A stretch of 64,000 bases of DNA from Thermosynechococcus sp. CL-1 (lineage in GTDB: Bacteria > Cyanobacteriota > Cyanobacteriia > Thermosynechococcales > Thermosynechococcaceae). The notes under the pieces are model-generated. The model saw nothing but the letters and a program-made list of their open reading frames with translations, did not search any database and was not told where the DNA came from. Each line of letters begins with the position of its first letter. Position 1 is the first letter of the stretch. Of this stretch, positions 2,493 to 34,821 are shown in pieces. Location: positions 434,001 through 498,000 of the forward strand of contig NZ_CP040671.1 of the NCBI RefSeq assembly GCF_008386235.1, given 5' to 3'. A program made the translations under genes and the position numbers.

Positions 2493-2831
2493 CGCTAGAC
2501 CGATTTTAGCGAACCGCCATCTTCCCTTTCCGCTGCTGCTAGGGGATGAGCAACGGGATAGGGGGTTAAGAAGCAGCCAATAGAGGCAACTGTTCTCTTG
2601 GTGCTAGATGGCGATCGCTCGCTCCCCAGCGCAATAATGTAACAACATGTAACAAAAGTCAGCGATCGCGCGGGGGAAACTGAACCCTTACAATAGGTTT
2701 CAGATGTGCTATTTTGCGTCACTGGCAAGCCAAACTCAGCTTTCTTGTGCGGGGATAGATATCAATTGGGCATGATTCCTGATAAGTTCAGAAAAACGCC
2801 TCTTAGTGGCACGCCTATGGCCTCAATGCCT
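2493..2831. other. Divergent intergenic region, kinase / rbcR
   Basis: 339 bases between two divergently read genes, so it should hold promoters for both. A direct repeat TGTAACA-ACA-TGTAACA lies near 2637-2654, between two HIP1-type GCGATCGC-like sites. LysR regulators often bind in such spacers and autoregulate, but no clear T-N11-A box could be assigned. In-frame upstream codons of the LysR gene reach to 2706, so part of this stretch could be coding if an earlier start is used. Confidence 0.4.
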
Positions 2832-3872
2832 ATGTCCGAACTGCCCTTTTCCCTTGATCAATTGCGAATCCTGAAGGCGATCGCCCTCGAAGGAAGCTTT
2901 AAGCGAGCCGCTGACAGCCTTTACGTCTCCCAACCCGCAGTGAGTTTACAGGTGCAAAACCTTGAACGCCAACTGGATGTTCCCCTCTTTGATCGCGGGG
3001 GACGCCGCGCCCAACTCACCGAAGCCGGACAACTCCTACTGGCCTACGGCGATCAAATTCTCTCCCTGTGCCATGAAGCCTGCCGTGCCATCGAAGACCT
3101 ACAAAAATTGCAGGGGGGGACATTGATCATTGGAGCCAGCCAAACCACCGGCACCTACCTGATGCCCCGCATGATTGGCCTGTTTCGCAGCAAATATCCC
3201 GAAGTCGCTGTTCAACTCCATGTGCATTCCACCCGCCGCACCTGCTGGAGTTTGGTCAACGGTCAAATTGATCTGGCGATTATTGGCGGCGAAGTCCCCT
3301 CAGAACTGAGTGAGCAAATTACCATCACCCCCTATGCGGAGGATGAACTGGCACTGGTCTTACCCGTGGATCATCCCTTGGCTAGTGCCGAAACCCTCAC
3401 CAAAGAAGACTTGTACAAGCTGGGCTTTATTGCCCTCGATGCCCAATCCACCATTCGCAAGGTGATTGATCAGGTGCTGCAGCGCGCCAACATTGACCCC
3501 CGCCGCCTGAAGGTGGAGATGGAGCTGAATTCCATTGAGGCGATTAAAAACGCCGTGCAGTCGGGCTTGGGGGCTGCCTTTGTCTCCATTTCCGCCATTG
3601 AGAAGGAGTTACAACTGGGGAGCCTGCGGCGGATAGGTATCGAAAATGTGGTGGTGAAACGCACCCTGTCACTGATTACCAATCCCAATCGCTACCGATC
3701 GCGGGCAGCGGAGGTCTTCTGCCGTGAAATTCTCACCCAATTTGCCACCTTTGCCATTGATACAGAACTGACAACGGCCAAGTCCCCCATCTCCGATAGT
3801 GAAAAACCCCTTAAGGAACTGCTGACGATCGCCCCCCTTGAGGAAAACAGCACCAATGTCAGTAATTCTTAG
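2832..3872 (+). CDS. rbcR: LysR-family transcriptional regulator, RbcR/CbbR type
   Basis: 346 residues from the ATG at 2832, chosen because the family's N-terminal [22 protein letters not shown] follows within a few residues; further in-frame starts at 2772 and 2706 would add an unconserved tail. An N-terminal winged helix-turn-helix (about residues 5-65, with [17 protein letters not shown] as recognition region) is followed by a two-lobed effector-binding domain from about 95 to 300 and a polar C-terminal tail. Close in character to cyanobacterial RbcR, which controls Rubisco and carbon-acquisition genes in response to carbon-state metabolites. NdhR/CmpR are paralogues that cannot be excluded without a tree. 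Confidence 0.8.
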
Positions 3873-3978
3873 GGCGACGCAGTGGCAGCCAACAGGCAGA
3901 ATAGTCGCGCTCAGGAGAGTTTATTATTTCAAAAGATCGGAGTATGATAATAGATCGCGCTATTCATAACTGATGACC

Positions 3979-4248
3979 ATGGCCCTGCAACACGACGTTA
4001 AACAAGAAATCATCAACACCTACCAGATTCACGGTACCGATACTGGCTCTGCGGATGTCCAAGTTGCCATCCTCACAGAGCGGATCAAGCAGCTTTCTGA
4101 GCATCTCAAGGCGAATAAAAAAGATCACGCCTCTCGCCGAGGACTGCTGAAAATTATTGGCCGTCGCAAGCGGCTACTGGCCTATATCCATCGCCACGAT
4201 GCCCAGCGCTATCGCCAACTCATTGAACGTTTAGGAATTCGGGGTTAA
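3979..4248 (+). CDS. rpsO: 30S ribosomal protein S15
   Basis: 89 residues, normal S15 length. It shows family landmarks: [34 protein letters not shown] and the C-terminal [13 protein letters not shown]...LIERLGIRG. It binds 16S rRNA helices in the small-subunit platform. The ATG at 3979 is preferred because S15 proteins usually begin with MAL; an ATG two codons upstream (3973) would add two residues. A TATGATAAT motif near 3944-3952 is a plausible -10 element. The stop is 5 bp before the PAM68 gene, suggesting an operon. Confidence 0.95.
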
Positions 4249-4253
4249 AGACA

Positions 4254-4718
4254 ATGGCAAAACGGTCGGATCTGCCTTTTGAGCCTAAAAAGAAAAAAGG
4301 AGCAACCAAGCCTGCCAAAGCTCCTGCTGCCGCAGCCGTCCGTTCTAATGCCCCAAAATCCCCAGCCAAGCCAGCCAAAAAAAGTACAGGCATTCCAGAA
4401 ATTGTCAGCCAACGCATGGTTACCCGGATGGCAATCTGCTGCGGTACCCCCACGCTTTTGGGATTGATGACGTTTCCCCTCAGCTATTTCATTGTCCATG
4501 AGGGCTGGTTTAAGTTGCCTAATGTGGCCGTTGTCATCGCTAGTCTCGGTCTCTTTGGCCTTGGGGCGCTGGGGCTGAGCTATGGGATTCTTTCTGCCTC
4601 TTGGGATGAGCACGAGCAGGGAAGTTGGCTCGGTTGGCGAGAATTCCGCACCAATTTTGGTCGTGTGATCGAGAGTTGGCAGGCCTATCAAGCCCAGCGA
4701 TCGCAAAACGCCGAATAG
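4254..4718 (+). CDS. PAM68-family photosystem II assembly membrane protein
   Basis: 154 residues. A basic, Lys/Ala/Pro-rich cytoplasmic N-terminus (about residues 1-45) precedes two transmembrane helices (about 63-80 and 90-115) and the conserved C-terminal region with SASWDEHEQGSWLGWREFRTNFGR. This layout is that of PAM68 (DUF3464), which helps insert and assemble photosystem II core subunits in thylakoids. It follows rpsO by 5 bp, so the two are probably co-transcribed. Confidence 0.85.
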   Translation: MAKRSDLPFEPKKKKGATKPAKAPAAAAVRSNAPKSPAKPAKKSTGIPEIVSQRMVTRMAICCGTPTLLGLMTFPLSYFIVHEGWFKLPNVAVVIASLGLFGLGALGLSYGILSASWDEHEQGSWLGWREFRTNFGRVIESWQAYQAQRSQNAE

Positions 4719-4896
4719 GGGCGATCGTTGAGTCACATCTGCTTCTCTCATCAATAAAATGTAAGGAATTCTTTACGGATTCTTATCATTCTCCGTCGCT
4801 TATCTACCATAGATTTATATAGTTACACCCTTTCAGTCACACCTGAGCACAGTCAGCAACACCTTAAAAGGGCTTGATGGCAACACTGCTTCAGGC

Positions 4897-5502
4897 ATGA
4901 CCAACGGCAAAGGGTGCTCAAGTCGCTCAAACCTTGTAACCCCTATGACAGCAACGGAAATGTTCCCAGTTGAGACTCGCACAAACGTGGGAGATCTGCC
5001 CATTAGCCTACAGTCCGCTAGCTTTCTGCAAAATTTGCTGGGATTAGTGGCAGAAACCCTTGAAGATGTCGTGGGTCTCGATGATGCCTCTGGGTTTATT
5101 GCCCTTGTAGGGCAGCAAATGGGCAATCAAATCAACGCTCTCTACACTCAAGCCCTTGGCGATCGCCCCCTTGATGCCAAGACGATTGCCCAAATTCTTG
5201 TGGATCTCAAAAATCGCATTGAAGGGGGATTTTTCCTGATTGAGCAGGATGAGGAACGTATTATCTTAGGGAATCAGCGTTGCCCCCTTGGCAGTGGCGT
5301 GGTGGGTCATCCCTCGTTGTGCATGATGACCTCAAATGTGTTTGGCGTGATTGTGGCGCACCATTTGGGCTATGCCAAGGTCTGTATTGAAAAGGCGATC
5401 GCCAATGGGGATCAAGGGTGCCACGTGGTGATCTATACCCAACCTACTGCTGCGGCCTCAGCGGCCAAGGGGCGAGAATACTATCGCATTGAGTCAGTCT
5501 AA
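4897..5502 (+). CDS. Methanogen-output-domain-1-like (MetOD1) sensory protein
   Basis: 201 residues from the first ATG; the ATG at 4945 gives 185 residues and is equally possible, with no clear ribosome site for either. An alpha-helical first half is followed by a cysteine-containing second half (NQRCPLG, HPSLCMMTSN, AKVCIEKA, DQGCHVVIY), the pattern of MetOD1-type domains found beside sensor kinases. The cysteines could bind a metal or a small ligand; this is inference. The 3' end overlaps or abuts the diguanylate cyclase gene, so the two products may work together as receptor and cyclase. Confidence 0.65.
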   Translation: MTNGKGCSSRSNLVTPMTATEMFPVETRTNVGDLPISLQSASFLQNLLGLVAETLEDVVGLDDASGFIALVGQQMGNQINALYTQALGDRPLDAKTIAQILVDLKNRIEGGFFLIEQDEERIILGNQRCPLGSGVVGHPSLCMMTSNVFGVIVAHHLGYAKVCIEKAIANGDQGCHVVIYTQPTAAASAAKGREYYRIESV

Positions 5503-5536
5503 GCCAGTCAAGTCCTTACATTCCGGCGGGGTTAAG

Positions 5537-6559
5537 ATGAGCGACTTTACACTCGATATTGGCGCATGGATCGATCTGTTGCCAGAGCCAACGCTGGTCA
5601 TGAATGTCCAAGGCAACATTGTGGCCATTAACCCCAGTGGCCGTGAATTTTTTGGCAGCAGTGTGCTCAATTGCAACCTTCGGGAACTGGTCGCCACCCC
5701 CCCAGAGAAACTCAATAAATGGCTGCCCCTCTGGCAACAGGCGACGCAAATGGTGCCCGGCACTCTTCGAGGTCCCCAAGGACAAAAAATCGAAGTGGAA
5801 GCCGTGGGTATCCACCGTTGCCAGCCCCCCTTGATTCTCCTGCGCCTGTTTCGCCAGCCCCGTTTTCTGCGACAGTTCATCGTCCAACGGCAGCAGTTTC
5901 AGCGCTTGCAAGAGCAAATGGCTCGGCAAACAGCTCTAATTGTGGAGCTACAGCAGCGGCAAAAACAGCTAGAGGCGGAAAATCGCCATCTCCAAGGGGT
6001 CTCCCAGCAGGACAGCCTGACCAAATTGGCGAATCGGCGTGCCTTTGAAGACGGTCTGCGGTCGGCTTGGCGGGAATCGGCCACCACCCATCTTCCCTTT
6101 GCCATTGCTCTGCTGGATATTGATCACTTCAAGCGCTACAACGACACCTACGGCCATCTGGCGGGCGATCGCGCCCTGCAACGGGTTGCCCATGCCATTA
6201 AATCCCAAGTGCGGGAAGCTGATCTCGTGGCTCGCTATGGCGGTGAAGAGTTTATTCTCCTGTTGCGCCACACCCACCATGACGTTGCCATTTGCGTTTT
6301 AGAGCGGATTTTTAACTACATTCGCAGCCTAGGGATTCCCCATGCCAGTTCACCAGTGCAACCCTACCTCACCGTCAGTGCCGGCATTTGCACCGTGAGC
6401 GCCACCCTTAGGGACTGCCCAATGGCGGAGCTGCTAGCGACTGCTGATGCTGCCCTGTACGAGGCCAAACGCTCAGGGCGCGATCGCTATGTGTTACAAA
6501 CCTATGCTTGGATGAGTGCGCCTGTCTCTTCCAGCCAAGAAATTCAGCCCTACCCCTAG
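5537..6559 (+). CDS. PAS-GGDEF diguanylate cyclase
   Basis: 341 residues from the ATG at 5537; an ATG at 5489 would add 16 residues and overlap the upstream gene. A PAS-like domain (about residues 10-110, LPEPTLVMNVQGNIVAINPSG) and a coiled coil (about 115-165) lead to a GGDEF domain beginning at QDSLTKLANRRAF. The active-site motif is GGEEF (about residues 235-239), and READ five residues upstream is the RxxD inhibitory site, so this should be a c-di-GMP synthase with product inhibition. No EAL domain is present. Its position directly behind the MetOD1 gene suggests a shared signal. Confidence 0.9.
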   Translation: MSDFTLDIGAWIDLLPEPTLVMNVQGNIVAINPSGREFFGSSVLNCNLRELVATPPEKLNKWLPLWQQATQMVPGTLRGPQGQKIEVEAVGIHRCQPPLILLRLFRQPRFLRQFIVQRQQFQRLQEQMARQTALIVELQQRQKQLEAENRHLQGVSQQDSLTKLANRRAFEDGLRSAWRESATTHLPFAIALLDIDHFKRYNDTYGHLAGDRALQRVAHAIKSQVREADLVARYGGEEFILLLRHTHHDVAICVLERIFNYIRSLGIPHASSPVQPYLTVSAGICTVSATLRDCPMAELLATADAALYEAKRSGRDRYVLQTYAWMSAPVSSSQEIQPYP

Positions 6560-6703
6560 GGAAAGCCCCTGTAGCTGCCTCTGCTAGATATAATGTGGGT
6601 GGCCAAAGCACGGCAATCCCGTAGCCGAAACGTGATAGTTGATCGCGGTTGGGACGTTGTGTTGCAGAATGTAAAGCTGAGTAAATTTTTGGAGATCGTG
6701 TAG

Positions 6704-7855
<1,152 letters not shown>

Positions 7856-7867
7856 GAAGATCAGTTG

Positions 7868-7889
7868 GGGGGCGATCGCCCCCTTTTTT
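7868..7889 (+). terminator. Rho-independent terminator after petH
   Basis: A perfect palindrome GGGGGCGATCGCCCCC built around a HIP1 core is followed directly by TTTTTT. It starts 13 bp after the petH stop. The HIP1 octamer has apparently been used as the terminator stem. Confidence 0.85.
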
Positions 7890-8034
7890 CCTCAATGCCA
7901 ATTGCCCTTTGGATCTGTCAGGATAGAAGTAAGTCGCCTGATGGAGCTGTTCCTGAAAGATGTTTGGCGTACGGTTGCTAGAATGTAGCCTATTTAACGC
8001 CAAGTCATGAGCATTCTCGTATTCTTCTAATGGT

Positions 8035-8343
8035 ATGGTGAGTACCCAGCGATCGCCTATGATTTATCCTCGCTTTCTGCGCAAAGCCTACCGTAAAGAA
8101 CCCATCTCCGCCTTCCTTCTGCTAATGGGAGGGGTGGATTCGACCATTGGTGGCTTGGGGGGCTACAACGGTCTGCTGCTATTGGGTCTAGGTTTGATGG
8201 GCAGCGCGCTGCTCTATCGCCTGCTCCAGCGATCGCCCGAACGTCCTCTCCCTGAGAAAGTTCCCCAGTATGCGCTGCCGCCCCAATCCTCCCAGCCCTT
8301 GCCGATGCTGACGATGAGCAAAAAACAGCCCCCCCTGCGCTAG
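8035..8343 (+). CDS. Small conserved-type membrane protein, function unknown
   Basis: 102 residues (94 if it starts at the ATG at 8059, where MIYPRFLRKAYRKEP looks like a natural beginning). A basic N-terminus precedes one or two hydrophobic stretches (AFLLLMGG and GLLLLGLGLMGSALLYRLL) and a Pro/Gln-rich polar tail. I do not recognise a named family. It ends 4 bp inside the 3' end of the convergent menF gene. Confidence 0.55.
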   Translation: MVSTQRSPMIYPRFLRKAYRKEPISAFLLLMGGVDSTIGGLGGYNGLLLLGLGLMGSALLYRLLQRSPERPLPEKVPQYALPPQSSQPLPMLTMSKKQPPLR

Positions 8344-9716
8344 GCTAAAGCAGAGATCATCGTCTGAAATTTCCACAGGATTTCCTGCCATTCCCGTTCC
8401 GGGTGAGAGCCTTTGACAATCCCCGCCCCAGCAAAAAGATGGGCAGAGTTGCCCTGAAGGTGGGCAGAGCGAATTCCGACAATGAATTCCCCTTCTCCGG
8501 TGGGTGTCACCCAACCAAGGGGCGCAGCATAACCACTGCGATCAAAGGGTTCCAGTTGCCGCAGCCAGTACTGTGCCCGTGAAGCAGGATACCCCGCTAC
8601 TGCTGGCGTCGGATGTAAGGCCGCCACCCCTTGGAGAATATGAATGGGTTGCGGCAGCGGGGCCTGAATCAGCGTTTGCAGATGTTGGATATGACTTAGC
8701 TCAAGGATACGTGGTTTAGTCGGCACCTCACAGGTCATGCCCAACTGTTGGAGGGTTTGGCAGAGAAATTCAACAATGACCTGATGCTCGTAGCGCTCCT
8801 TGGGGCTGTGGTAAAGGCCATTGCGCAGGCTTTGATCCTCCTGTTGGGTTTGCCCGCGGGGACGGGAACCCGCCAAAGCATCCGCACAGAGAACGCCATC
8901 GGCAATCTTGACCAAGCGTTCGGGACTCGCCCCCAAAAAGACCTGCTGCCGCTCTTGGCCAACACTAAAGATGTAGCAATTGGCGTACTGCTGACGCAGA
9001 TTTTGCAACGTTCCCAGCCAGTTGAACCCCTGAGGCTGCTCTAGGGTGAGGGCAGCGGCCAAAACCAATTTTTCGAGGTCTCCCTCCTCAAGGAGCTTGA
9101 GAGCCTGCTGGACACTGGTAATAAATTGCCCGTATTGCTCAGTTAGAGGCGGTAGGGCGATCGCCAGTGGTGGTGGACAGGGGGGTGGATCAGCCAGAAT
9201 GTGGGTCAGTGCCCGCTGCACTAGTTGCCAGTCTTGCCAGAGGCGATGGGGTGTACTGGTCTCTAGGGCACAACTGAGGGTGAGCCAAACCTGATCCAGA
9301 CGCTGAATCACCTGCCAGCGGGGTAAGAACCCCCAGTTAGAGCCTAGGTGATCCCAAAAACTAAATTGACAGAACAGGCGCGGTTCGGCTGGAGCGATCG
9401 CCCACACGCGGCTGAGAGTTTGTTCACTAAAACGCTGGAGTTCCACAAACCGTTGATGTCCCTGAACACTGCGGGTCGCCACCGCACCACAGGCAGCAAC
9501 AATCTCTCCCGCTTGCTCAAGGTAAAAATGCTCACTTTCGCCACTGACTTGCATCAGCCCAGCCAATAGGATCAGGGGATCAACGGTGGGTAAGGAGATG
9601 CCTAAACTCAGGAACTGACAATTGGCCTGCTGTGCTGCCTGCATTCCAGCGCTGACCTGAGTATAAAACTCGGACTCAGAGGACAAATCAAAAGTAAGGG
9701 GCAGCGAAACGGGCAT
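8340..9716 (-). CDS. menF: Isochorismate synthase
   Basis: 458 residues from the ATG at 9716 (a TTG two codons upstream is also open). The C-terminal chorismate-binding domain shows FLGASPERLVKI, LAGSRPRG, the region KERYEHQVIVEFL and HPTPAVAGYP, all typical of MenF/EntC/PchA enzymes that convert chorismate to isochorismate. In cyanobacteria this is the first committed step to phylloquinone, the photosystem I A1 cofactor. menE of the same pathway lies about 13 kb away. It is unlinked to its neighbours by orientation. Confidence 0.9.
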   Translation of the reverse strand: MPVSLPLTFDLSSESEFYTQVSAGMQAAQQANCQFLSLGISLPTVDPLILLAGLMQVSGESEHFYLEQAGEIVAACGAVATRSVQGHQRFVELQRFSEQTLSRVWAIAPAEPRLFCQFSFWDHLGSNWGFLPRWQVIQRLDQVWLTLSCALETSTPHRLWQDWQLVQRALTHILADPPPCPPPLAIALPPLTEQYGQFITSVQQALKLLEEGDLEKLVLAAALTLEQPQGFNWLGTLQNLRQQYANCYIFSVGQERQQVFLGASPERLVKIADGVLCADALAGSRPRGQTQQEDQSLRNGLYHSPKERYEHQVIVEFLCQTLQQLGMTCEVPTKPRILELSHIQHLQTLIQAPLPQPIHILQGVAALHPTPAVAGYPASRAQYWLRQLEPFDRSGYAAPLGWVTPTGEGEFIVGIRSAHLQGNSAHLFAGAGIVKGSHPEREWQEILWKFQTMISALA

Positions 9717-14337: not shown

Positions 14338-15228
14338 GTGACTGACTTTGGACGTGTGATTACCGCCATGATTACGCCATTTACAGCCGATGGCGCGATC
14401 GCCTACGATGTGGCGGCAGAACTGGCACAGCACCTTGTGGCCAATGGCTCCGATAGCATTGTGGTTTGTGGCACCACCGGCGAATCCCCCACCCTCACTT
14501 GGGAAGAGGAATTTCAACTCTTTCAAACGGTGCAGCAGGCTGTGGCAGGCAAAGCCAAGGTGATTGCAGGTACGGGTTCCAACTCCACCCGTGAAGCGAT
14601 TGAAGCCACTGCAAAAGCCGCCGAATTAGGACTTGATGGTGCCCTCTTGGTGGTACCCTATTACAACAAACCCCCTCAAGAGGGTCTTTACGCCCATTTT
14701 CAGGCGATCGCCCAGGCGGTGCCGGACTTTCCCCTCATGCTCTACAACATCCCCGGCCGCACAGGGCAGAACCTGCTACCAGAAACAGTGATCCGCCTTG
14801 CTGACTACCCAAACATTGTTGCCATCAAAGAAGCCAGCGGCAGCCTTGATCAAGCCAGTGCCCTACGTGCTGCCCTACCGCCGACCTTTCGCATTTACTC
14901 CGGCGATGATTCCCTAACGTTGCCATTGCTGGCCGTGGGTGGTTATGGTGTCGTCAGTGTAGCCAGTCACCTTGTTGGCCCTCGCATTCAAGAGATGATC
15001 CAAGCCTTTGTCCAAGGAGCGACGGCCAAAGCCACTGCTATTCATTGTCAACTATTGCCCCTGTTCAAGGTTTTATTTGTGACGACGAATCCGATTCCGA
15101 TTAAAGCTGCTCTTCGCCTGCAAGGTTGGGCGGTGGGTGCTCCCCGACTGCCCCTTACATCTGCGAGTGACGCTGTGATTAGCCAATTGAAGCCCGTTTT
15201 AGATCACCTTGGCCTACTGAAGTCTTAA
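14338..15228 (+). CDS. dapA: 4-hydroxy-tetrahydrodipicolinate synthase
   Basis: 296 residues with a GTG start at 14338, chosen because the family begins [14 protein letters not shown]. Motifs: [15 protein letters not shown], the tyrosine region [17 protein letters not shown], and the Schiff-base lysine in [13 protein letters not shown]. It condenses pyruvate with aspartate semialdehyde in lysine and diaminopimelate (cell-wall) synthesis. It lies 59 bp upstream of rnj, an arrangement (dapA-rnj) also seen in other bacteria. Confidence 0.95.
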
Positions 15229-15287: not shown

Positions 15288-17033
15288 ATGAGTCAATCCG
15301 CTGCAACTGCTGCCCTAAAAATTATTCCCCTCGGTGGGCTGCACGAAATTGGCAAGAACACCTGTGTTTTTGAATTCCAAGATGAAATTATTTTGCTGGA
15401 CGCAGGGTTAGCCTTTCCCACCGATGGCATGCATGGGGTCAATATCGTCTTACCCGATATGACGTACCTGCGGCAAAACCGCGAAAAAATCAAGGGAATG
15501 ATTGTGACCCACGGCCACGAGGATCACATTGGTGGCATCCCCTTTCATCTCAAGCAGTTTGATATTCCCGTCATCTATGGCCCGCGTCTTGCGATGGCAC
15601 TGCTCCAAGGGAAGCTGGAAGAGGCAGGGGTTGGCGATCGCACCGAACTGCGCACGGTACAGCCGCGGGAGATGGTGCGTTTGGGCAAAAACTTCCTTGT
15701 GGAGTATATCCGCAATACCCATTCCATTGCCGATAGCTTCTCCGTGGCGATTCATACCCCCATTGGCGTGATTATCCACACCGGGGATTTCAAATTTGAC
15801 TTTACCCCCGTTGATGGCGAGTGCTTTGACATTCAGCGGCTGGCGGAGCATGGGGAGAAGGGGGTTCTCTGTCTCATTAGTGACTCCACCAATTCGGAAG
15901 TGCCCGGCCACACCCCCTCGGAGCGATCGGTGTTTCCCAACTTGGATCGTGCCTTTAGCCAAGCAGAGGGGCGGATTATTTTTACCACCTTTGCCTCCTC
16001 GGTACATCGCCTCAGTATGGCTTTAGAGCTGGCTCAAAAATATGGCCGCGTGGTTTCGGTCTTGGGGCGATCGATGCTCAATGTCATTGCCCATGCGCGG
16101 CAGTTGGGCTACATTCACTGCCCAGACGATCTCTTTGTGCCACTGCACATGATGCACAAGTACCCCGATCATCAGGTGATGTACCTGACCACTGGCTCCC
16201 AAGGGGAACCTCTGTCTGCCCTGACGCGGATTTCCAAAGGGGAACACAACAAAATTAAAATTCGCCCCGGCGATACTGTGATTCTCTCAGCTCACCCCAT
16301 TCCGGGGAACACGATTGCCGTGGTCAACATGATCGATCGCCTGATGATGCAAGGCGCCAAAGTCATCTACGGTCGCGAACAGGGCATTCACGTCTCTGGT
16401 CATGCCTGCCAAGAGGATCAAAAGCTGATGCTGGCGTTGACCAAGCCCAAGTTCTTTTTACCCGTACATGGCGAGCACCGCATGCTGGTGAAACACGCCC
16501 AAACGGCTCAGAGCATGGGCATTCCCCCTGAGAATATGGTGATTATTGACAACGGCGATGTGGTGGAACTTACCCGTGACTCGATTCGGGTCGTCGATAA
16601 GGTGCCTGCTGGCATTGAGTTACTAGATCGCGGTGGCATTGTCAAAGCCCATGTGCTGCAAGAGCGACAACAACTGGCTGAGGAAGGCATTATCACCGTG
16701 GCGGTGGCGGTGGGTACTGATGGTAGCCTGAAGGCCACTCCTGAAGTCCACCTGCGGGGCGTGGTCACGGCGATTGAGCCACAGGCTTGGCAGGCTTGGG
16801 TACATGCCACGGTCGAAACCGCTTTGAGCGATCGCTGGAGTGAATATGCCCGCAACGGCGATATCGATTGGGCAGGGGTCAAAGCCCACATTGAACGGGA
16901 ACTGGTGCGACTGGTGCGCCGTGAACTTCAGGGCAATGCCTCAGTCCTATTGCTTCTGCAACCCATCGAAGTCACCCCCACGGTGACCACGGGAATTCGG
17001 CGGCGTCGCAGCACGGCTTCTGTGGTTGGCTAG
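15288..17033 (+). CDS. rnj: Ribonuclease J
   Basis: 581 residues. The metallo-beta-lactamase motif HGHEDH (residues 75-80) binds two metal ions. Further motifs are HTGDFKFD, SDSTNS, the beta-CASP region (FTTFASSVHRL, LGRSM) and VHGEHRML. The C-terminal domain contributes to dimer formation. It has 5'-3' exo- and endonuclease activity in mRNA turnover. An AGGAGA ribosome site stands 5-10 bases before the ATG. A long hairpin follows the stop. Confidence 0.95.
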   Translation: MSQSAATAALKIIPLGGLHEIGKNTCVFEFQDEIILLDAGLAFPTDGMHGVNIVLPDMTYLRQNREKIKGMIVTHGHEDHIGGIPFHLKQFDIPVIYGPRLAMALLQGKLEEAGVGDRTELRTVQPREMVRLGKNFLVEYIRNTHSIADSFSVAIHTPIGVIIHTGDFKFDFTPVDGECFDIQRLAEHGEKGVLCLISDSTNSEVPGHTPSERSVFPNLDRAFSQAEGRIIFTTFASSVHRLSMALELAQKYGRVVSVLGRSMLNVIAHARQLGYIHCPDDLFVPLHMMHKYPDHQVMYLTTGSQGEPLSALTRISKGEHNKIKIRPGDTVILSAHPIPGNTIAVVNMIDRLMMQGAKVIYGREQGIHVSGHACQEDQKLMLALTKPKFFLPVHGEHRMLVKHAQTAQSMGIPPENMVIIDNGDVVELTRDSIRVVDKVPAGIELLDRGGIVKAHVLQERQQLAEEGIITVAVAVGTDGSLKATPEVHLRGVVTAIEPQAWQAWVHATVETALSDRWSEYARNGDIDWAGVKAHIERELVRLVRRELQGNASVLLLLQPIEVTPTVTTGIRRRRSTASVVG

Positions 17034-17046
17034 CATCAAGCCCCTT

Positions 17047-17097
17047 GGGCAGGAGAAGGTGCCTATTTTGTAGGGCATCCCTGCCCGTTTATTTTTG
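17047..17097 (+). terminator. Putative terminator after rnj
   Basis: Outer stem GGGCAGG (17047-17053) pairs with CCTGCCC (17080-17086), with an inner imperfect stem GGTGCC...GGGCATC, followed by GTTTATTTTTGTT. A long but plausible intrinsic terminator. Confidence 0.6.
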
Positions 17098-17275
17098 TTG
17101 CCGCTGCGCTAGCTAGCGTTGAAACGATCGGGGGCTTTCGGTTGATTTCTTGCCGAGCAATAGCCCCTCAACACGTTCAACTGATTAGGAAGCAACTCAA
17201 CCATAGTTAACAACTAAAGCTAGAATTACAATAACAGACTAGTACCAATATCACAAATAAAAATTGTGGCGCGCA

Positions 17276-20200
17276 ATGGATATTGATGATTTTGATGTTA
17301 ATTCGATGACTACTGCAGCTCAGCATCCTGACCCTTGTGTACGTCGGCAGGTAGCGCAGTCTGCTACTACTTCACCAAACATTTTACGGATGTTGGCCAA
17401 TGACCCCGATAAAAAAGTGCGCCTTGCGGTTGCTGCCAATGGCAATACCCCTGCTGAAGTCCTAGAGGCTTGGCTATCGGAAGCTCAAAGCAATAAACCG
17501 TTAGCAGAAGCTCTTGCCAAGAACCCCAGTGCATCCCATGCTCTCCTGACAACTTTAGCACAACATCCAGCGGCCAATGTCCGCCGTAAAGTGGCGATGA
17601 ATCCCCAGACCCCTCCAGCGACCCTCTATAAACTAGCTGAGGAATTTCCAGTGGCAGTAGCTCGCAATCCTGGGATGAAACTCCTTGTGCTCCAAGACAG
17701 TGAACTACAGAGCATCAGTGATGAAACCTTAATACGAATATTAAAGCTTACAGAGCCGCCGACTTGGGCATTGACAGTTGCAGTTCAGCGTCAAAGCGCA
17801 AAAGTAAGACAGCAGGCGGCTAGGGCAAAAACGATTCTTCCTGAACTCCTCGCAACCCTTGCGAAGGATAAGGATAAATATGTTCGCGCAGCAGTAGCGG
17901 GGAACCCGAATACTCCTGTCTCTGCCCTCGAAACCCTTGCGAAGGATGAGAGTTGGGATGTTCGCGCAGTAGTAGCGGGGAACCCCAATACTCCTGTCTC
18001 TGCCCTCGAAACCCTTGCGAAGGATGAGGATAGCGATGTTCGCAGAGCAATAGCAGAAAGACCTGAAATTGTTTCGTTGATTGAGGAGGCTAAGAGCAAC
18101 GACACCGCTACCATCCGACTAGCAGAGCTAGCTAGCCACTTTTGTACGGATGTTCGCGCAGCAGTAGCGGGGAACCCGAATACTCCTGCTTCTGCCCTCG
18201 AAACCCTTGCGAAGGATGAGTATAGCGATGTTCGTGAAGTAGTAGCGGGGAACCCCAATACTCCTGTCTCTACCCTCGAAACCCTTGCTGAGGATGAGGA
18301 TAGCGATGTTCGCAGAGCAGTAGCGGGGAACCCCAATACTCCTGTCTCACTCCTCGAAACCCTTGCTGAGGATGAGGATAGCGATGTTCGCGCAGCAGTA
18401 GCGGGGAACCCCAATACTCCTGTCTCTGCCCTCGAAACCCTTGCTGAGGATTGGTATTGGAAGGTTCGTAAAGCAATAGCAGAAAGACCTGAAATTGTCT
18501 CGTTGATTGAAGAGGCTAAGAGCAACGACACCACTACCATCCGACTAGCAGAGCTAGCTAGCCACTTTTGTACGGATGTTCGCCAAGCGGTAGCGGGGAA
18601 CCCGAATACTCCTGCTTCTGTTTTGGCAACCCTTGCTCAGCCTCTTCGCGTAGCATTAGCGGGGAACCCCAATACTCCTGCTTCTGCCCTCAAAACCCTT
18701 GCGAAGGATGAGAGTTGGAATGTTCGCGCAGCAGTAGCGGGGAACCCCAATACTCCTGTCTCTGCCCTCGAAACCCTTGCGAAGGATGAGGATAGCGATG
18801 TTCGCAGAGCAATAGCAGAAAGACCTGAAATTGTTTCGTTGATTGAAGAGGCTAAGAGCAACGACACCGCTACCATCCGACTAGCAAAGCTAGCTAGTCA
18901 CTTTTGTACGGATGTTCGCGTAGCAGTAGCGGGGAACCCCAATACTCCTGTCTCTGCCCTCGAAACCCTTGCGAAGGATGAGGATAACGATGTTCGCAGA
19001 GCAGTAGCAGAAAGACCTGACATTGTTTCGTTGATTGAGGAGGCTAAGAGCAACGACACCGCTACCATCCGACTAGCAGAGCTAGCTAGCCACTTTTGTA
19101 CGGATGTTCGCCAAGCGGTAGCGGGGAACCCGAATACTCCTGCTTCTGTTTTGGCAACCCTTGCTCAGCCTCTTCGCGTAGAATTAGCGGGGAACCCCAA
19201 TACTCCTGCTTCTGCCCTCGAAACCCTTGCGAAGGATGAGAGTTGGGATGTTCGTGAAGCAGTAGCGGGGAACCCCAATACTCCTGTCTCTGCCCTCGAA
19301 ACCCTTGCGAAGGATGAGGATAGCGATGTTCGCGCAGCAGTAGCGGGGAACCCCAATACTCCTGTCTCTGCCCTCGAAACCCTTGCTGAGGATGAGCATT
19401 GGTGGGTTCGCACGGCAGTAGCGGGGAACCCCAATACTCCTGCTTCTGCCCTCGAAACCCTTGCTGAGGATGAGGATTGGTGGTTTCGCGCAGTAGTAGC
19501 GGGGAACCCCAATACTCCTGTCTCTGCCCTCGAAACCCTTGCGAAGGATGAGTATTGGACTGTTCGCGCAGCAGTAGCGGGGAACCCCAATACTCCTGTC
19601 TCACTCCTCGAAACCCTTGCGAAGGATGAGAGTTCGAATGTTCGCGCAGCAGTAGCGGGGAACCCCAATACTCCCGCCTCTGCCCTCGAAACCCTTGCGA
19701 AGGATGAGGATAGCGATGTTCGCAGAGCAATAGCAGAAAGACCTGAAATTGTTTCGTTGATTGAGGAGGCTAAGAGCAACGACACCGCTATCATCCGACT
19801 AGCAGAGCTAGCTAGCCACTTTTGTACGGATGTTCGCGCAGCAGTAGCGGGGAACCCCAATACTCCTGTCTCTACCCTCGCAACCCTTGCGAAGGATGAG
19901 AGTTGGGATGTTTGTGAAGTAGTAGCGGGGAACCCCAATACTCCTGTCTCTGCCCTCGAAACCCTTGCTGAGGATGAGGATAACGATGTTCGCAGAGCAG
20001 TAGCAGAAAGACCTGACATTGTTTCGTTGATTGAGGAGGCTAAGAGCAACGACACCGCTACCATCCGACTAGCAGAGCTAGCTAGCCACTTTTGTACGGA
20101 TGTTCGCCAAGCGGTAGCGGGGAACCCGAATACTCCTGCTTCTGTTTTGGCAACCCTTGCTCAGCCTCTTCGCGTAGCATTAGCGGGGAACCCCAATACT

Positions 20201-21958
20201 CCTGCTTCTGCCCTCGAAACCCTTGCGAAGGATGAGAGTTGGGATGTTCGCGCAGTAGTAGCGGGGAACCCGAATACTCCTGTCTCACTCCTCGAAACCC
20301 TTGCTGAGGATTGGTATTGGGAGGTTCGCAGAGCAGTAGCGGGGAACCCGAATACTCCTGTCTCACTCCTCGAAACCCTTGCTGAGGATTGGTATTGGGA
20401 GGTTCGCAGAGCAGTAGCGGGGAACCCCAATACTCCTGTCTCTGCCCTCGAAACCCTTGCGAAGGATAGGTATTGGAAGGTTCGCAGAGCAGTAGCGGGG
20501 AACCCCAATACTCCTGTCTCACTCCTCGAAACCCTTGCGGAGCAGCGGTATGTCCGCGCAGCAGTAGCGGGGAACCCCAATACTCCTGTCTCACTCCTCG
20601 AAACCCTTGCGAAGGATGAGCGTTGGAATGTTCGCGCAGCAGTAGCGGGGAACCCGAATACTCCTGTCTCTGCCCTCGAAACCCTTGCGAAGGATGAGAG
20701 TTCGAATGTTCGCGCAGCAGTAGCGGGGAACCCCAATACTCCCGCCTCTGCCCTCGAAACCCTTGCTGAGGATTGGTATTGGGAGGTTCGTAAAGCAATA
20801 GCAGAAAGACCTGAAATTGTTTCGTTGATTGAGGAGGCTAAGAGCAACGACACCGCTACCATCCGACTAGCAGAGCTAGCTAGCCACTTTTATACGGATG
20901 TTCGTGAAGTAGTAGCGGGGAACCCGAATACTCCTGTCTCTACCCTCGAAACCCTTGCTGAGGATTGGTATTGGGAGGTTCGCAGAGCAGTAGCGGGGAA
21001 CCCGAATACTCCTGTCTCACTCCTCGAAACCCTTGCTGAGGATTGGTATTGGGAGGTTCGCAGAGCAGTAGCGGGGAACCCCAATACTCCTGTCTCACTC
21101 CTCGAAACCCTTGCGAAGGATGAGAGTTCGAATGTTCGCGCAGCAGTAGCGCGGAACCCCAATACTCCTGCTTCTGTTTTGGAAACCCTTGCGAAGGAGA
21201 ACGATTGGACTGTCTGCAGAGCAGTAGCGGGGAACCCGAGTACCCCTGTCTCACTCCTCGCAACCCTTGCGAAGGAGAACGATTGGACTGTCTGCAGAGC
21301 AGTAGCGGGGAACCCGAGTACCCCTGTCTCACTCCTCGCAACCCTTGCGAAGGATGAGAGTTGGGCTGTTCGTGAAGTAGTAGCGGGGAACCCCAATACT
21401 CCTGTCTCACTCCTCGAAACCCTTGCGAAGGATGAGGATAGCGATGTTCGCAGAGCAGTAGCGCGGAACCCGAATACTCCTGCTTCTGTTTTGGAAATCC
21501 TTGCTGAGGATAAGGAGAGTGATGTCCGCCAAGCAGTAGTGCGGAACCCCAATACTCCTGCTTCTGCCCTCGAAACCCTTGCGAAGGATAAGGAGAGTGA
21601 TGTTCGCGCAGCAGTAGCGTGGAAGCCCAATACTCCTGTCTCTGCCCTCGAAACCCTTGCGAAGGATGAGTATTGGACTGTTCGCGCAGCAGTAGCGGGG
21701 AACCCCAATACTCCTGTCTCACTCCTCGAAACCCTTGCGAAGGATAAGGAAAGTGATGTCCGCAGAGCAGTAGCAAGAAGACCTGAAATTACTGCTTTAA
21801 TCACGGAAGCTTACAGTGGCAACACTTCTACAGACCGACTAGCCGAACTAGCTGGCCACTTTTGTACGGATGTTCGCGCAGCAGTAGCGGGGAACCCCAA
21901 TACTCCTGCTTCTGTTTTGGAAGCCCTTGCGAAGGATGAGGATAAATGCGAAGGATGA
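17276..21958 (+). CDS. Giant LRV/HEAT-like tandem-repeat protein
   Basis: 1560 residues from the ATG at 17276 (a TTG four codons upstream is also open). Residues 1 to about 205 contain older, diverged leucine-rich-variant (LRV) units. From about residue 206 there are 41 units of the type VAGNPNTPxSxLETLAKDxxxxVRxA, mostly 26 residues (78 bp) long. Eight units carry a 38-residue insert (ERPEIVSLIEEAKSND...LASHFCTDVR). Three units are 22 residues long (AQPLRV) and one is 24. No signal peptide, membrane helix or catalytic domain is visible, so a cytoplasmic alpha-solenoid scaffold or recognition protein is likely. The frame ends early at a 19-bp duplication. Function unknown. Confidence 0.85.
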   Translation: MDIDDFDVNSMTTAAQHPDPCVRRQVAQSATTSPNILRMLANDPDKKVRLAVAANGNTPAEVLEAWLSEAQSNKPLAEALAKNPSASHALLTTLAQHPAANVRRKVAMNPQTPPATLYKLAEEFPVAVARNPGMKLLVLQDSELQSISDETLIRILKLTEPPTWALTVAVQRQSAKVRQQAARAKTILPELLATLAKDKDKYVRAAVAGNPNTPVSALETLAKDESWDVRAVVAGNPNTPVSALETLAKDEDSDVRRAIAERPEIVSLIEEAKSNDTATIRLAELASHFCTDVRAAVAGNPNTPASALETLAKDEYSDVREVVAGNPNTPVSTLETLAEDEDSDVRRAVAGNPNTPVSLLETLAEDEDSDVRAAVAGNPNTPVSALETLAEDWYWKVRKAIAERPEIVSLIEEAKSNDTTTIRLAELASHFCTDVRQAVAGNPNTPASVLATLAQPLRVALAGNPNTPASALKTLAKDESWNVRAAVAGNPNTPVSALETLAKDEDSDVRRAIAERPEIVSLIEEAKSNDTATIRLAKLASHFCTDVRVAVAGNPNTPVSALETLAKDEDNDVRRAVAERPDIVSLIEEAKSNDTATIRLAELASHFCTDVRQAVAGNPNTPASVLATLAQPLRVELAGNPNTPASALETLAKDESWDVREAVAGNPNTPVSALETLAKDEDSDVRAAVAGNPNTPVSALETLAEDEHWWVRTAVAGNPNTPASALETLAEDEDWWFRAVVAGNPNTPVSALETLAKDEYWTVRAAVAGNPNTPVSLLETLAKDESSNVRAAVAGNPNTPASALETLAKDEDSDVRRAIAERPEIVSLIEEAKSNDTAIIRLAELASHFCTDVRAAVAGNPNTPVSTLATLAKDESWDVCEVVAGNPNTPVSALETLAEDEDNDVRRAVAERPDIVSLIEEAKSNDTATIRLAELASHFCTDVRQAVAGNPNTPASVLATLAQPLRVALAGNPNTPASALETLAKDESWDVRAVVAGNPNTPVSLLETLAEDWYWEVRRAVAGNPNTPVSLLETLAEDWYWEVRRAVAGNPNTPVSALETLAKDRYWKVRRAVAGNPNTPVSLLETLAEQRYVRAAVAGNPNTPVSLLETLAKDERWNVRAAVAGNPNTPVSALETLAKDESSNVRAAVAGNPNTPASALETLAEDWYWEVRKAIAERPEIVSLIEEAKSNDTATIRLAELASHFYTDVREVVAGNPNTPVSTLETLAEDWYWEVRRAVAGNPNTPVSLLETLAEDWYWEVRRAVAGNPNTPVSLLETLAKDESSNVRAAVARNPNTPASVLETLAKENDWTVCRAVAGNPSTPVSLLATLAKENDWTVCRAVAGNPSTPVSLLATLAKDESWAVREVVAGNPNTPVSLLETLAKDEDSDVRRAVARNPNTPASVLEILAEDKESDVRQAVVRNPNTPASALETLAKDKESDVRAAVAWKPNTPVSALETLAKDEYWTVRAAVAGNPNTPVSLLETLAKDKESDVRRAVARRPEITALITEAYSGNTSTDRLAELAGHFCTDVRAAVAGNPNTPASVLEALAKDEDKCEG

Positions 21959-22016
21959 GGATAAACATGTTCGCGCAGCAGTAGCGGGGAACCCCAATAC
22001 TCCTGTCTCACTCCTC
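17894..22016 (+). repeat. 78-bp coding tandem repeat array
   Basis: About 42 direct repeats with a 78-bp period (for example unit starts at 17894 and 17972). Many units agree at nearly every base, including synonymous sites in GTAGCGGGGAACCC and CTCGAAACCCTTGC. The difference sits mainly in a 12-15 base window before GTTCGC. Such identity means recent unit duplication or gene conversion. It also leaves long antisense frames open, which should not be annotated. Confidence 0.95.
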
Positions 22017-22034
22017 AAACCCTTGCTGAGTTAG
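21929..22034 (+). pseudogene. Cut-off last LRV repeat (19-bp duplication)
   Basis: GCGAAGGATGAGGATAAA occurs at 21929-21946 and again at 21948-21965, separated by one T. The 19-bp insertion shifts the frame so that the protein ends in DKCEG at 21958. Removing it restores DKHVRAAVAGNPNTPVSLLKPLLS with a stop at 22032-22034, a further repeat and a natural-looking end. Confidence 0.75.
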
Positions 22035-22077
22035 GGATAAGTATTGGCTTTCGTTTTGGTCATGCTTATGGTGGTGG

Positions 22078-23403
22078 CTAGGTCTCAATCGAGGATAATC
22101 GCACTTTTCCTTGGGGCGTGCGGGGAATTTGGGGCACAGAAATCCATTTCTTAGGGCATTTGTAGGCGCTGCACTGCCGTTTGAGCCATCGGCTGAGTTC
22201 CTCAGGGGAGGCATCTCCCACATAGAGGGCAATGACCTGCTCACCCCAAAGGGGGTCGGGTGCGCCGTAGATGTAGATGTCTTGGACAAGGCCACTATTA
22301 AGGAGTAAGGCCTCTACCTCTTCGGGGTAGATATTCTCACCACCACTGATGATTTTGCGGCTGCTGCGTCCCAAAATGTAGAGGCGATCGCCCCGCCATT
22401 CGCCGCGATCGTCCGTTTGGAATATCCCTTCATGGAATAACCCAGGGTAATAGCCAAGGGCAAGGGAGGCGGCCTGAATCTGAATCTCCCCCGTAGGGGT
22501 TAAAGCAATTTGGGCATGGGGTAAGACTTGACCACAGGAGCGATCGCCCGCCAAAAATTCCCCCTGCCGTTGGGCACAGATCATGCCAGCAGTTTCTGTC
22601 ATGCCATAACTGAGACATAGAGGCAATCGCTGGGTTGCTGCTTCCTCTAATAGTTGCGACCAAGTGGGGCCACCGCCCACGAAAATGCCCCTTAAATCTG
22701 CTAGCCATGGCAGAGGGTCTGCAAGCACCTGTTGCAGTTGCCGCGGTACCAGAGACAGCCACAGATCAACATTGGCAGGAGGCGCCGTTTGCCGTAGATC
22801 CCGTAGATGGGTACCGAGATAGAGTTCTCCACCACTCCAGAGCGATCGCACCACGGGCATCAGGCCACTGACATGGTATAGGGGCAAAATACTCAGACAG
22901 TAAATCGCCCTTTGTTGTAAATGGCTTTGCAGCCCCATTACTGCCGCTTGAAGGGTCGCCACCGTGTGAATTGCCCAGCGCAACCGCCCTTGAGTGCCGC
23001 CAGTGGGAATCAGAATCCAGCCTTGGGGCAATGGTTCTTCAGAGCCTTGGGGGTCGAGGGGGGGCACCGTTCCCCAAGCAAGGAAATTTCTAGGCAGAAT
23101 CGCTGCCACCTGCTGCCACTCTTGGAATTGCCAGTGGGGATTGGCCAGTAATAGGGGCGTCCCTGTGGAGAGCGCTGCGAGAAAACCACTGAGAAACGAG
23201 AGGGGATCGGGTTCTGCAAGAACGAGGAGAGTGGGTTGTTGCTCTTGGAGTTGCTCTTGATAGTTGGCTAATTGCTCGAGGAGTCTGGCGGTAGCAGTGT
23301 GCCATTGTCCGTTGTGGGGATACCACAGCCAGTGGGGGGCAATACTCGTAAGGTTTTGTAACAAATTTGCCCTACCCCTCCCTAAACCAATAGGTAAAAT
23401 CAA
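22078..23403 (-). CDS. menE: 2-succinylbenzoate-CoA ligase
   Basis: 441 residues at most, an acyl-adenylate enzyme: the P-loop-like ILIPTGGTQGRLRWA, LSYGMTETAGMI, the hinge-region LYILGRSSRKIISGGENIYPEEVEALL and the late catalytic lysine region CPKKWISVPQIPRTPQGKVRLS. MenE activates o-succinylbenzoate in phylloquinone synthesis; the short length suits MenE better than fatty-acyl ligases. No ATG is available near the N-terminus: TTG codons at 23403 and 23364 are the candidates. The first leaves only 11 bp to the divergent rsfS start, so 23364 may be the real one. Confidence 0.8.
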   Translation of the reverse strand: MILPIGLGRGRANLLQNLTSIAPHWLWYPHNGQWHTATARLLEQLANYQEQLQEQQPTLLVLAEPDPLSFLSGFLAALSTGTPLLLANPHWQFQEWQQVAAILPRNFLAWGTVPPLDPQGSEEPLPQGWILIPTGGTQGRLRWAIHTVATLQAAVMGLQSHLQQRAIYCLSILPLYHVSGLMPVVRSLWSGGELYLGTHLRDLRQTAPPANVDLWLSLVPRQLQQVLADPLPWLADLRGIFVGGGPTWSQLLEEAATQRLPLCLSYGMTETAGMICAQRQGEFLAGDRSCGQVLPHAQIALTPTGEIQIQAASLALGYYPGLFHEGIFQTDDRGEWRGDRLYILGRSSRKIISGGENIYPEEVEALLLNSGLVQDIYIYGAPDPLWGEQVIALYVGDASPEELSRWLKRQCSAYKCPKKWISVPQIPRTPQGKVRLSSIET

Positions 23404-33283: not shown

Positions 33284-33949
33284 TCAAGATCTGCGAGCGG
33301 CGGAGGGTCGCGATCTTGGGGTTGGCACAGTTAGCTGCGGAATCCTGACCCAGCAATGGTCTTCAAATTCGTTGCCTAAGCGAAAGCGTTGAAAGGTTCC
33401 TTGGCTGCTCTGGCGATCGATCCAGATGGGCAGGCTAATGAGACCTCGATTGTCTTTAATGAGCCAGCGGATCGAGCCATCGTTGTCCCGATAGGGGCGT
33501 ACACCATTGACCAGTGCCCACGACTCCCCCAAACTCAGGCCACCAAAGCGGGAAATTTGCTGGGGTGTGGTGAAGGCGATCGCCAGCCGATCAACCAGCT
33601 TCAGTGGTGCATTTTCCTCACTCGAATCAACTTTGACAACCACTTGCACATCTGTGAGCAGTTCATGGTGATTCGGCTTGGAGAATTTACTCGTGGAATA
33701 GGTGCCGAGGCGATTCTTACTGAACTTGTGATGCCGCTGTTTACGCAGAATGCGAGAAATGGGTGGGTCAGCACCAATAATGCCAATGGCCAGTTTGACA
33801 CCCCGATGTTGATCCAAATTCTCTTCACCGATCAGGGAAAGGAGCATGCCATAGATCGTGGAGGGGGGTGGATAGCGGTAGGTCTCCTTAAAGTCGCGGG
33901 CAAAGCTGCGGGGAAAACTGGTACAGGGACAATCAACGTAAAGTTGCAT
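33284..33949 (-). CDS. cas5: Cas5, MYXAN/DevS type
   Basis: 221 residues. The N-terminal RAMP fold carries the Cas5 signature (DCPCTSFPRSFARDFKETYRYPPPSTIYGMLLSLIGEE). Cas5 caps the 5' handle of crRNA in the Cascade complex. The ATG overlaps the cas7 stop by one base (TAATG read on the minus strand), so it is translationally coupled and the last gene of the interference operon. Basic Arg/Ser tail at the C-terminus. Confidence 0.88.
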   Translation of the reverse strand: MQLYVDCPCTSFPRSFARDFKETYRYPPPSTIYGMLLSLIGEENLDQHRGVKLAIGIIGADPPISRILRKQRHHKFSKNRLGTYSTSKFSKPNHHELLTDVQVVVKVDSSEENAPLKLVDRLAIAFTTPQQISRFGGLSLGESWALVNGVRPYRDNDGSIRWLIKDNRGLISLPIWIDRQSSQGTFQRFRLGNEFEDHCWVRIPQLTVPTPRSRPSAARRS

Positions 33950-34821
33950 TAGGCGGGCACCTCAAGCTTGAGTTGTTGCTTTAATTGTTCTTTGGCGTGG
34001 GCGATCGCTTCTTTGACCCCGCGATAGACCTGAACCCCCAATGCCTTTAACTGCTGACCATAGGGAGTATCGGCAATCTCACCGCCAACGATTAGCTCAT
34101 CAGCCTTCACATCCCCCACTTCAACCAGTCGCACTAGCCGCGGGCAGCCCACCGATTCGCCAATGCGCTTAAACACGTCCATAATCCAAGGACTCGGATC
34201 ATCGGTTATCCGAAGCACAATGGACTCTGGATGAAAGTCGTATAAAAAGCGGGCATGGTTACCGCCCACATGACGCACCGCCCCAATGGCATCGAGGGTA
34301 AGGAGGGCACGTTCTGGTTTCTTCAAACTCTCTGGTGTGAGGGCGATCGTGTACTGATAGGCAGTGCAGTGTACTTCGGTGCTATGAATCGAAGTTTTTC
34401 CCTTTTCGCCGCCTTTAGAACCAAAGGCAATATCCCCCCAATAGGGATCCAGACTCATAGCGCGACTAATTTCTAGGGCACCCCGCCGTTTGGTCGTGGC
34501 ATCTTCATTATCCTTCCCCTTTTTGGCGTCCATGTAGCCAAACAAGTCATCATCAATGTATTTTTCAGCGCTGAATTGTTCATCCTTGAAGCTATACTTG
34601 TCAGTCTCAGCATTAAATGTGCGATTCACCTCTTTTTCATAATGATTTTGAAAATACTCCCGCAATCCCCAACGGATCGCTTCTGCACTCACAGTAGTGT
34701 ATTGATCATTGCCACGGGTGATTTTTTGCAAAGTTGAGAGAGTGCTCCCATCCCCTTCCCCCCGGTTATTGGCTGCAACAGCAGTGGTCGTTACAATTGT
34801 TGCAAAAAGATGTTTTGTCAT
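33949..34821 (-). CDS. cas7: Cas7, Cst2/DevR type
   Basis: 290 residues. A typical Cas7 backbone subunit: start MTKHLFATIVTTTAVAANNRGE, the SAEAIRWGLREYFQ segment and the conserved GAVRHVGGNHARFLYDF near the middle, which resembles the glycine-rich region of DevR/Cst2 proteins. Several copies line the crRNA spacer. AGGAG lies 9 bases upstream of the ATG. It follows cas8 by 29 bp and overlaps cas5 by 1 bp. Confidence 0.9.
   Translation of the reverse strand: MTKHLFATIVTTTAVAANNRGEGDGSTLSTLQKITRGNDQYTTVSAEAIRWGLREYFQNHYEKEVNRTFNAETDKYSFKDEQFSAEKYIDDDLFGYMDAKKGKDNEDATTKRRGALEISRAMSLDPYWGDIAFGSKGGEKGKTSIHSTEVHCTAYQYTIALTPESLKKPERALLTLDAIGAVRHVGGNHARFLYDFHPESIVLRITDDPSPWIMDVFKRIGESVGCPRLVRLVEVGDVKADELIVGGEIADTPYGQQLKALGVQVYRGVKEAIAHAKEQLKQQLKLEVPA

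Follow-up and report, generated by a model that had tools for sequence, protein, structure and literature searches.

What kind of protein is encoded by a gene whose repeat units share nearly the same DNA and differ at a few codons, and does the change at these codons reflect selection on a binding surface? We addressed this question for a gene of Thermosynechococcus sp. CL-1 that lies in a window of 64,000 nucleotides, the window being the whole stretch of DNA that was analyzed. An earlier note on this DNA had described a giant repeat protein with a frozen framework and a hypervariable site of four residues, and had suggested a binding scaffold in which unit copying spreads the framework while selection varies the contact residues. 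The four-residue site, positions 23-26 of a 26-residue unit, is called the tetrad below.

Family, repeat array and predicted fold

The open reading frame lies on the plus strand at 17276-21958, as given in the earlier note, with an ATG at 17276, a stop codon that ends at 21958 and 1560 uninterrupted amino acids (aa). The protein belongs to an already known family, the leucine-rich repeat variant (LRV) solenoid proteins. It matched PF01816 (LRV) with an E-value of 1.9e-256 and 812 bits, against a curated cut-off of 21.6, and PF25591 with an E-value of 7e-135, and its sole sequence relative in the PDB at E ≤ 0.01 was 1lrv (E 3.2e-9). Apart from LRV and LRV_2, no listed Pfam family had any stretch that was significant on its own, and no NCBIfam model scored above its cut-off. 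No NACHT/STAND NTPase or effector domain was found among the ten Pfam families listed, and the protein is accordingly not an NLR-like receptor in the sense of one chain carrying both. From the PADLOC anti-phage models only HEC-01B was returned (E 0.0097), without a significant stretch, and the protein was not classed as a defence protein.

The N-terminal part (residues 1-202, 17276-17881) precedes the regular array and is orthologous to a gene of a congener, genome G007, whose best match covers residues 6-259 of the query at 73% identity. The array itself (17882-21871) comprises 36 units of 26 aa, three of 22 aa, one of 24 aa (20480-20551) and eight of 38 aa, and sequence and codon analysis placed the variable codons of the 26-aa unit at 3, 15 and 23-26. 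Together with the last unit of the open frame, 49 units follow residue 202. The 41 units counted in the earlier note were recovered as those with an [NK]P[NS]TP motif (NPNTP-type) beyond this residue, namely the 36, three and one units above and the last one. To that description we add the eight 38-aa units, which are interspersed in the array and nearly invariant (mean DNA identity 0.91); the first occupies 18038-18151 and the others start at 18464, 18800, 18992, 19718, 19988, 20786 and 21758. Each 22-aa unit (18578-18643, and from 19106 and 20102) stands directly 3' of a 38-aa unit. The 22-aa units mark a block that is present three times, and exact repeats of 120-207 bp were found at the spacings of these blocks.

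The 3' end of the gene is slightly damaged. A perfect 19-bp tandem duplication at 21928-21965 (Tandem Repeats Finder: two copies, 100%) shifts the frame and ends it early, so that the last unit (21872-21958) closes with CEG and the stop codon, and one further LRV unit persists out of frame as a remnant beyond the stop (21945-22022; 77% identity over 26 aa in translation). The loss amounts to about one unit.

Structure prediction gave a pLDDT of 76.7 for a 370-residue model and a pLDDT of 95.1 with a pTM of 0.85 for a model of seven regular units. In the latter, helix A is predicted to consist of residues 25 and 26 followed by residues 1-7 of the next unit, and helix B of residues 13-19, giving two helices per 26 aa, stacked as in 1lrv. 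The closest fold matches were the alphaRep binders, with Z-scores from 15.9 downward and a best rmsd of 3.3 over 171 residues. The match to 1lrv had a Z-score of 13.0 and an rmsd of 4.1 with 167 of 182 residues aligned; such Z-scores are common among helical repeats, and the assignment to the LRV fold was therefore decided by the sequence match to 1lrv. The fold search also returned LRV proteins of uncultured phages.

The seven-unit model places residues 23-24 of the tetrad in the turn between units, residues 25-26 in the opening turn of the helix A that follows, and position 3 in the middle of that helix. It suggests that the tetrad is exposed to solvent. A helical wheel with positions 1, 4 and 5 as the core put position 25 at 166 degrees and position 3 at 154 degrees; it was ambiguous, and a weak argument for exposure, because the conserved alanine 6 also lies at 146 degrees.

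Copying of units and change at the variable codons

Pairwise DNA identity among the 36 units of 26 aa averaged 0.845 (range 0.705-1.000). At the tetrad pN/pS was 0.43/0.10, compared with 0.10/0.14 at the remaining 22 positions. The framework, which the earlier note had called frozen even at synonymous sites, did show a low overall pS (the 0.14 above), but codons 9, 13, 14 and 20 reached 0.36-0.46. The same 16 tetrad motifs as in that note were recovered in the 36 clean units, and the codons of the tetrad differ at all three bases and with all four letters. The residues do not change quite as freely as had been supposed, however, with E at position 23 in 24 of 36 units and W or S at position 25 in 34 of 36. 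Most of the 144 tetrad residues (122) are E, D, W, S or Y; W and Y together make up 38 of the 144; the figure for other LRV arrays is 75 of 804. Position 15, previously noted as a second and milder variable site, is indeed variable but not milder. Its pN of 0.51, with a residue that is always A, L, T or V, equals the variability of the tetrad, as does that of position 3 (pN also 0.51), which had not been noted before.

The units are homogenised within the gene. In a tree of the 36 units with 22 units of the G007 orthologue (26 aa with NTP, from 23 of 26 aa listed), the two sets separated with a support of 0.987; DNA identity was 0.845 and 0.930 within the two genes and 0.743 between them. The units separate despite plainly orthologous N-termini, and this concerted evolution supports the unit copying proposed earlier. 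Block duplications are marked by identical stretches of 113 to 207 bp, which recur at seven spacings. The tetrad motif was associated with position 3 in the following unit (p 0.0025), which lies less than 10 bp away in the same helix, and no association was found with position 3 (p 0.47) or position 15 (p 0.73) of its own unit. This pattern points either to reshuffling of variable sites on a short scale or to joint selection of sites that share a helix. No copies of the unit were found elsewhere in the genome: 42 of 43 matches were in the gene or just 3' of it, and the other was 15 bp long. A target of a diversity-generating retroelement was considered and rejected, as the genome holds no template copy and the changes show no adenine-only pattern.

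Proteins with many almost identical domains in tandem may be prone to joint misfolding or mispairing, and selection on the variable sites might serve to keep adjacent identical units apart, with no changing ligand involved. Neighbouring units should then differ more than chance at the tetrad. Instead, the 27 neighbouring pairs differed at 2.22 residues on average against 2.59 in shuffled arrays (p 0.046), and five pairs were identical against 1.96, a slight likeness such as tandem copying gives. We regard this explanation as very improbable.

Change at the tetrad and at positions 3 and 15 is faster than neutral. In a codon-partition model of the 36 units of exactly 26 aa (the 22-aa, 24-aa, 38-aa and last units were excluded), omega was 4.21 for the tetrad (p 1.2e-8), 12.1 for position 3 (p 2.8e-12), 5.05 for position 15 (p 2.4e-4) and 0.59 for the framework (p 0.058). 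The tetrad still differed when given its own synonymous rate (p 0.012). By minimal event counts, nonsynonymous change at the tetrad ran at 2.7 times the unit's synonymous rate (p 0.0033), with 2.5 times for positions 3 and 15 jointly (p 0.05) and 0.50 times for the framework (p 0.047). Within the tetrad codons alone, nonsynonymous events per site were about twice the synonymous ones, of which there were two. The tree of the codon model assumes no recombination between units, though the linkage pattern suggests that it occurs; this and the few synonymous events in the variable codons are the weak points of the omega result. With tree tips shuffled, tetrad omega was 3.4-8.6 in the nine of 13 fits that left their start (2 of 3 and 7 of 10). 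A mutation hot spot at the tetrad was rejected, since its synonymous rate (0.17) did not differ from that of the framework (0.21; p 0.79), on few events. Because the tetrad exceeds the synonymous rate, the recognition idea of the earlier note withstood comparison with neutral change.

Across the family, too, these positions rank with the most variable ones (rank correlation 0.75), a pattern that weak constraint would likewise produce. Fourteen arrays linked to MoxR genes had at least eight clean units, from 100 LRV genes. The tetrad changed faster than the framework in all 14; its omega was above 1 in six of them, significantly in one, and significantly below 1 in three. Among six other arrays, which we chose from 15 available, omega at the tetrad was above 1 in all six and significantly so in three; one locus occurs in both tests (L166 among the 14, L101 among the six). 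The G007 orthologue has six tetrad motifs in 22 units, and its tetrad omega over 30 units was 1.68 (p 0.089). The family thus shares accelerated change at the turn, and above-neutral change occurs in some arrays, most strongly here among those tested. A plasmid of Deinococcus psychrotolerans (L097, 7236-15953) carries a pair of giant LRV genes at a short distance from each other; the array of one, with 30 units, has a DNA identity of 0.80 and a tetrad omega of 2.0 (p 0.0013), and the other gene 1.14 (p 0.41).

These data bear on an explanation by relaxed constraint, according to which the array grew by block duplication not long ago, and drift acts on its turns, which tolerate almost any residue, but spares the residues that carry the fold, without any recognition. 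It would agree with the family-wide variability of the same positions and with the 14 linked arrays, in which the tetrad always outran the framework and only one was significantly above the synonymous rate. It would also agree with the gene being accessory, LRV units above the cut-off being present in 2 of 11 genus genomes. Relaxation alone, however, cannot raise omega above 1, as seen at the tetrad both with the shared and with its own synonymous rate, and the tetrad residues come mostly from the five kinds named above. We consider drift of this kind unlikely, although it keeps an appreciable share of our expectation.

Genomic site and neighbours of LRV relatives

The gene is flanked upstream by dapA (14338-15228) and an RNase J gene (15288-17033) and downstream by a menE-type O-succinylbenzoate-CoA ligase gene on the opposite strand (22078-23403). 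In six relatives with adjacent RNase J and ligase genes (G007, G008, G001, G005, G004 and G002), the stretch 17175-22087 has no counterpart at this site; the homologous sequence breaks off somewhere in 17033-17174 and picks up again somewhere in 22088-22103. Four genomes were left out of the comparison, G003 and G010 with the two genes not neighbours and G006 and G009 with the genes on different contigs. The spacer between the matched ends of the two genes measures 76 to 865 bp in the six relatives, compared with about 5 kb here (17033-22078), and the site may be one at which genes are gained and lost.

The GC content of 0.532 against 0.534 gave no sign of foreign origin. No HIP1 site occurs in the gene and 88 occur in the 64-kb window; as most of the gene repeats a single short unit, this low count was given no weight. 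A phage origin was rejected, with one of 50,697 phage records matching, at 32%, as was a plasmid origin, with 86 of 72,556 plasmid records matching, all below 60%. Elsewhere in the window a CRISPR array was observed at 39607-40578 (14 exact copies of a 36-bp repeat), near genes for Cas6 (38646-39314), Cas3 (36383-38695) and a Cas4-Cas1 fusion (41128-42786), a Cas7-type DevR match (33949-34821) and a Cas5 match below its cut-off (33284-33949).

The orthologue in G007 (1199 aa) stands in a row with genes for a MoxR-type AAA ATPase, a DUF2201 protein with metallopeptidase-like and vWA-like parts, a second small LRV protein and a protein with a weak DpdK match, which we read as PLD-like. Among 386 sampled genomes of the phylum, 17 had DUF2201_N, 26 had LRV_2 and seven had both, where 1.15 were expected (p 3.4e-5). 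DUF2201 regions were compared in 13 of the 17 genomes; six contained LRV genes, all six among the nine closest to the G007 type. Loci with relatives of the G007 MoxR ATPase gave a similar picture. Among the best 80 of 114, which are related to one another, include some genomes twice and are not independent events, DUF2201 was found in 75, LRV in 52 and both in 48. The LRV gene lay within 500 bp in 44 of these 52 loci and on the same strand in 49, and LRV was present in 33 of the 50 loci of at least 14 kb. Named organisms with such loci among the best 80 include cyanobacteria, Herpetosiphon, Ktedonobacter and Meiothermus, the last three also among the LRV-bearing loci, and all nine sampled LRV frames scored above the Pfam LRV cut-off.

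The link loosens when LRV genes are the starting point: MoxR or DUF2201 occurred in two of eight regions outside the genus, which were picked by similarity to the 1560-aa protein and have short flanks, and in two of four plasmid regions. On the Synechocystis plasmid pSYSA an LRV gene lies about 4 kb from VWA-like and MoxR genes, on the other strand and beside CRISPR type I-D genes, and on an Allomeiothermus plasmid LRV, VWA-like and MoxR genes lie side by side. One locus (L108, G064:C41:22000-41000) holds eight LRV frames in a row at 1868-8482, one of them only 90 aa long; MoxR and DUF2201 genes follow immediately downstream. The Aeromonas caviae plasmid pAC1520 (L098) has six LRV-like genes in two groups, annotated as hypothetical, and no MoxR or DUF2201 relative was found in that region. 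Among the matches listed in a literature search, whose coverage leaves out most subscription journals, none described an LRV-MoxR-DUF2201 gene set.

The gene of CL-1 does not stand beside MoxR and DUF2201 genes as its G007 orthologue does. Its genome contains no DUF2201 and no match to the partner MoxR of the G007 type. Generic MoxR (PF07726) was found at two places and vWA (PF13519) at three, none near the LRV gene (C1:451279) or near each other. The missing pair means that the protein acts alone or with other MoxR or vWA proteins, or that it is an orphaned, perhaps decaying arm.

The last of these can be taken further, to a gene that was acquired or stranded without MoxR and DUF2201, lost its 3' end to the 19-bp duplication and now changes its repeats by copying errors without present function. 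The missing partners, the stretch absent from the site in six relatives, and the frameshift with its remnant unit would all fit. Against this, 1560 codons are still open and the loss seen is only about one unit, the framework omega of 0.59 points to constraint, if only at p 0.058, and generic MoxR and vWA genes exist elsewhere in the genome. Decay of this kind seems doubtful to us, and distinctly less credible than drift under relaxed constraint.

A candidate recognition scaffold and its known counterparts

Taken as a whole, the data are best explained, we think with a confidence slightly above the halfway mark, by a diversifying giant LRV alpha-solenoid that serves as a modular protein-binding scaffold. 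Block duplication spreads and homogenises the units inside the gene, apparently together with short-range recombination, which would keep the fold intact. Selection would retain changes at the turn between units and the start of helix A (23-26) and at position 3 of the same helix, sites whose place in the turn and helix is predicted by the model, and position 15 probably tunes packing. We infer the exposure of the variable sites, a changing binding partner and the protein's role. Judged by the genes that adjoin many LRV relatives, the protein would most likely serve a MoxR ATPase/DUF2201 system as a variable arm, acting as sensor or adaptor. For the 1560-aa protein itself we likewise infer a sensor or defence role, the variable binding arm being suggested by analogy and by the neighbours of its relatives.

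A wider proposal would be that LRV arrays, MoxR ATPase and DUF2201 (metallopeptidase and vWA-like) make up a bacterial recognition system not described before, where a varying binding strip comes from block copying and short-range recombination, as a retroelement-free counterpart of the repeats of fungal NLR proteins. The CL-1 protein would then be a highly diversified, now partnerless recognition arm. We put this forward tentatively, as a possibility that falls well short of being probable. If true, the widespread LRV-MoxR-DUF2201 set would be a place to seek bacterial recognition systems that diversify through both copying and recombination of repeats and not by reverse transcriptase.

Within the LRV family (PF01816/PF25591; Azotobacter LRV protein, 1lrv), the 26-residue unit is shared. 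The Azotobacter LRV protein has an iron-sulphur N-terminus. The CL-1 protein, in contrast, has no LRV_FeS domain in its list of ten Pfam families, is far longer and is homogenised at the DNA level. Its mode of evolution is not new, as fast horizontal evolution of repeats is known in general (Persi et al. 2016, PMC5120217).

Another counterpart is provided by the MoxR-vWA (VMAP) ternary conflict systems, in which a MoxR ATPase and a vWA protein are coupled to superstructure-forming repeats, HEAT included (Kaur et al. 2020, PMC7159879). The main text of that paper uses neither the word LRV nor the word DUF2201, and the LRV gene of CL-1, unlike the genes of those systems, is not linked to a MoxR-vWA pair.

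The NWD genes of Podospora, with the WD40 repeats of het-d and het-e, are reported to work alike, combining concerted evolution with strong positive selection at a few codons per unit, in their case four (PMC1805685). They encode fungal WD40 propellers in NACHT-type proteins with allorecognition shown, whereas the CL-1 protein is a lone alpha-solenoid. The alphaRep proteins, its closest fold matches, are artificial HEAT-like binders which likewise combine a constant scaffold with few variable positions per unit and are described as binding chosen proteins (PMC3754942). They are man-made, and their six randomised positions (18, 19, 22, 23, 26 and 30 of their own unit) do not necessarily form the same surface. 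If our reading is true, the CL-1 protein would be a natural alpha-solenoid that evolves like such an engineered binder library.
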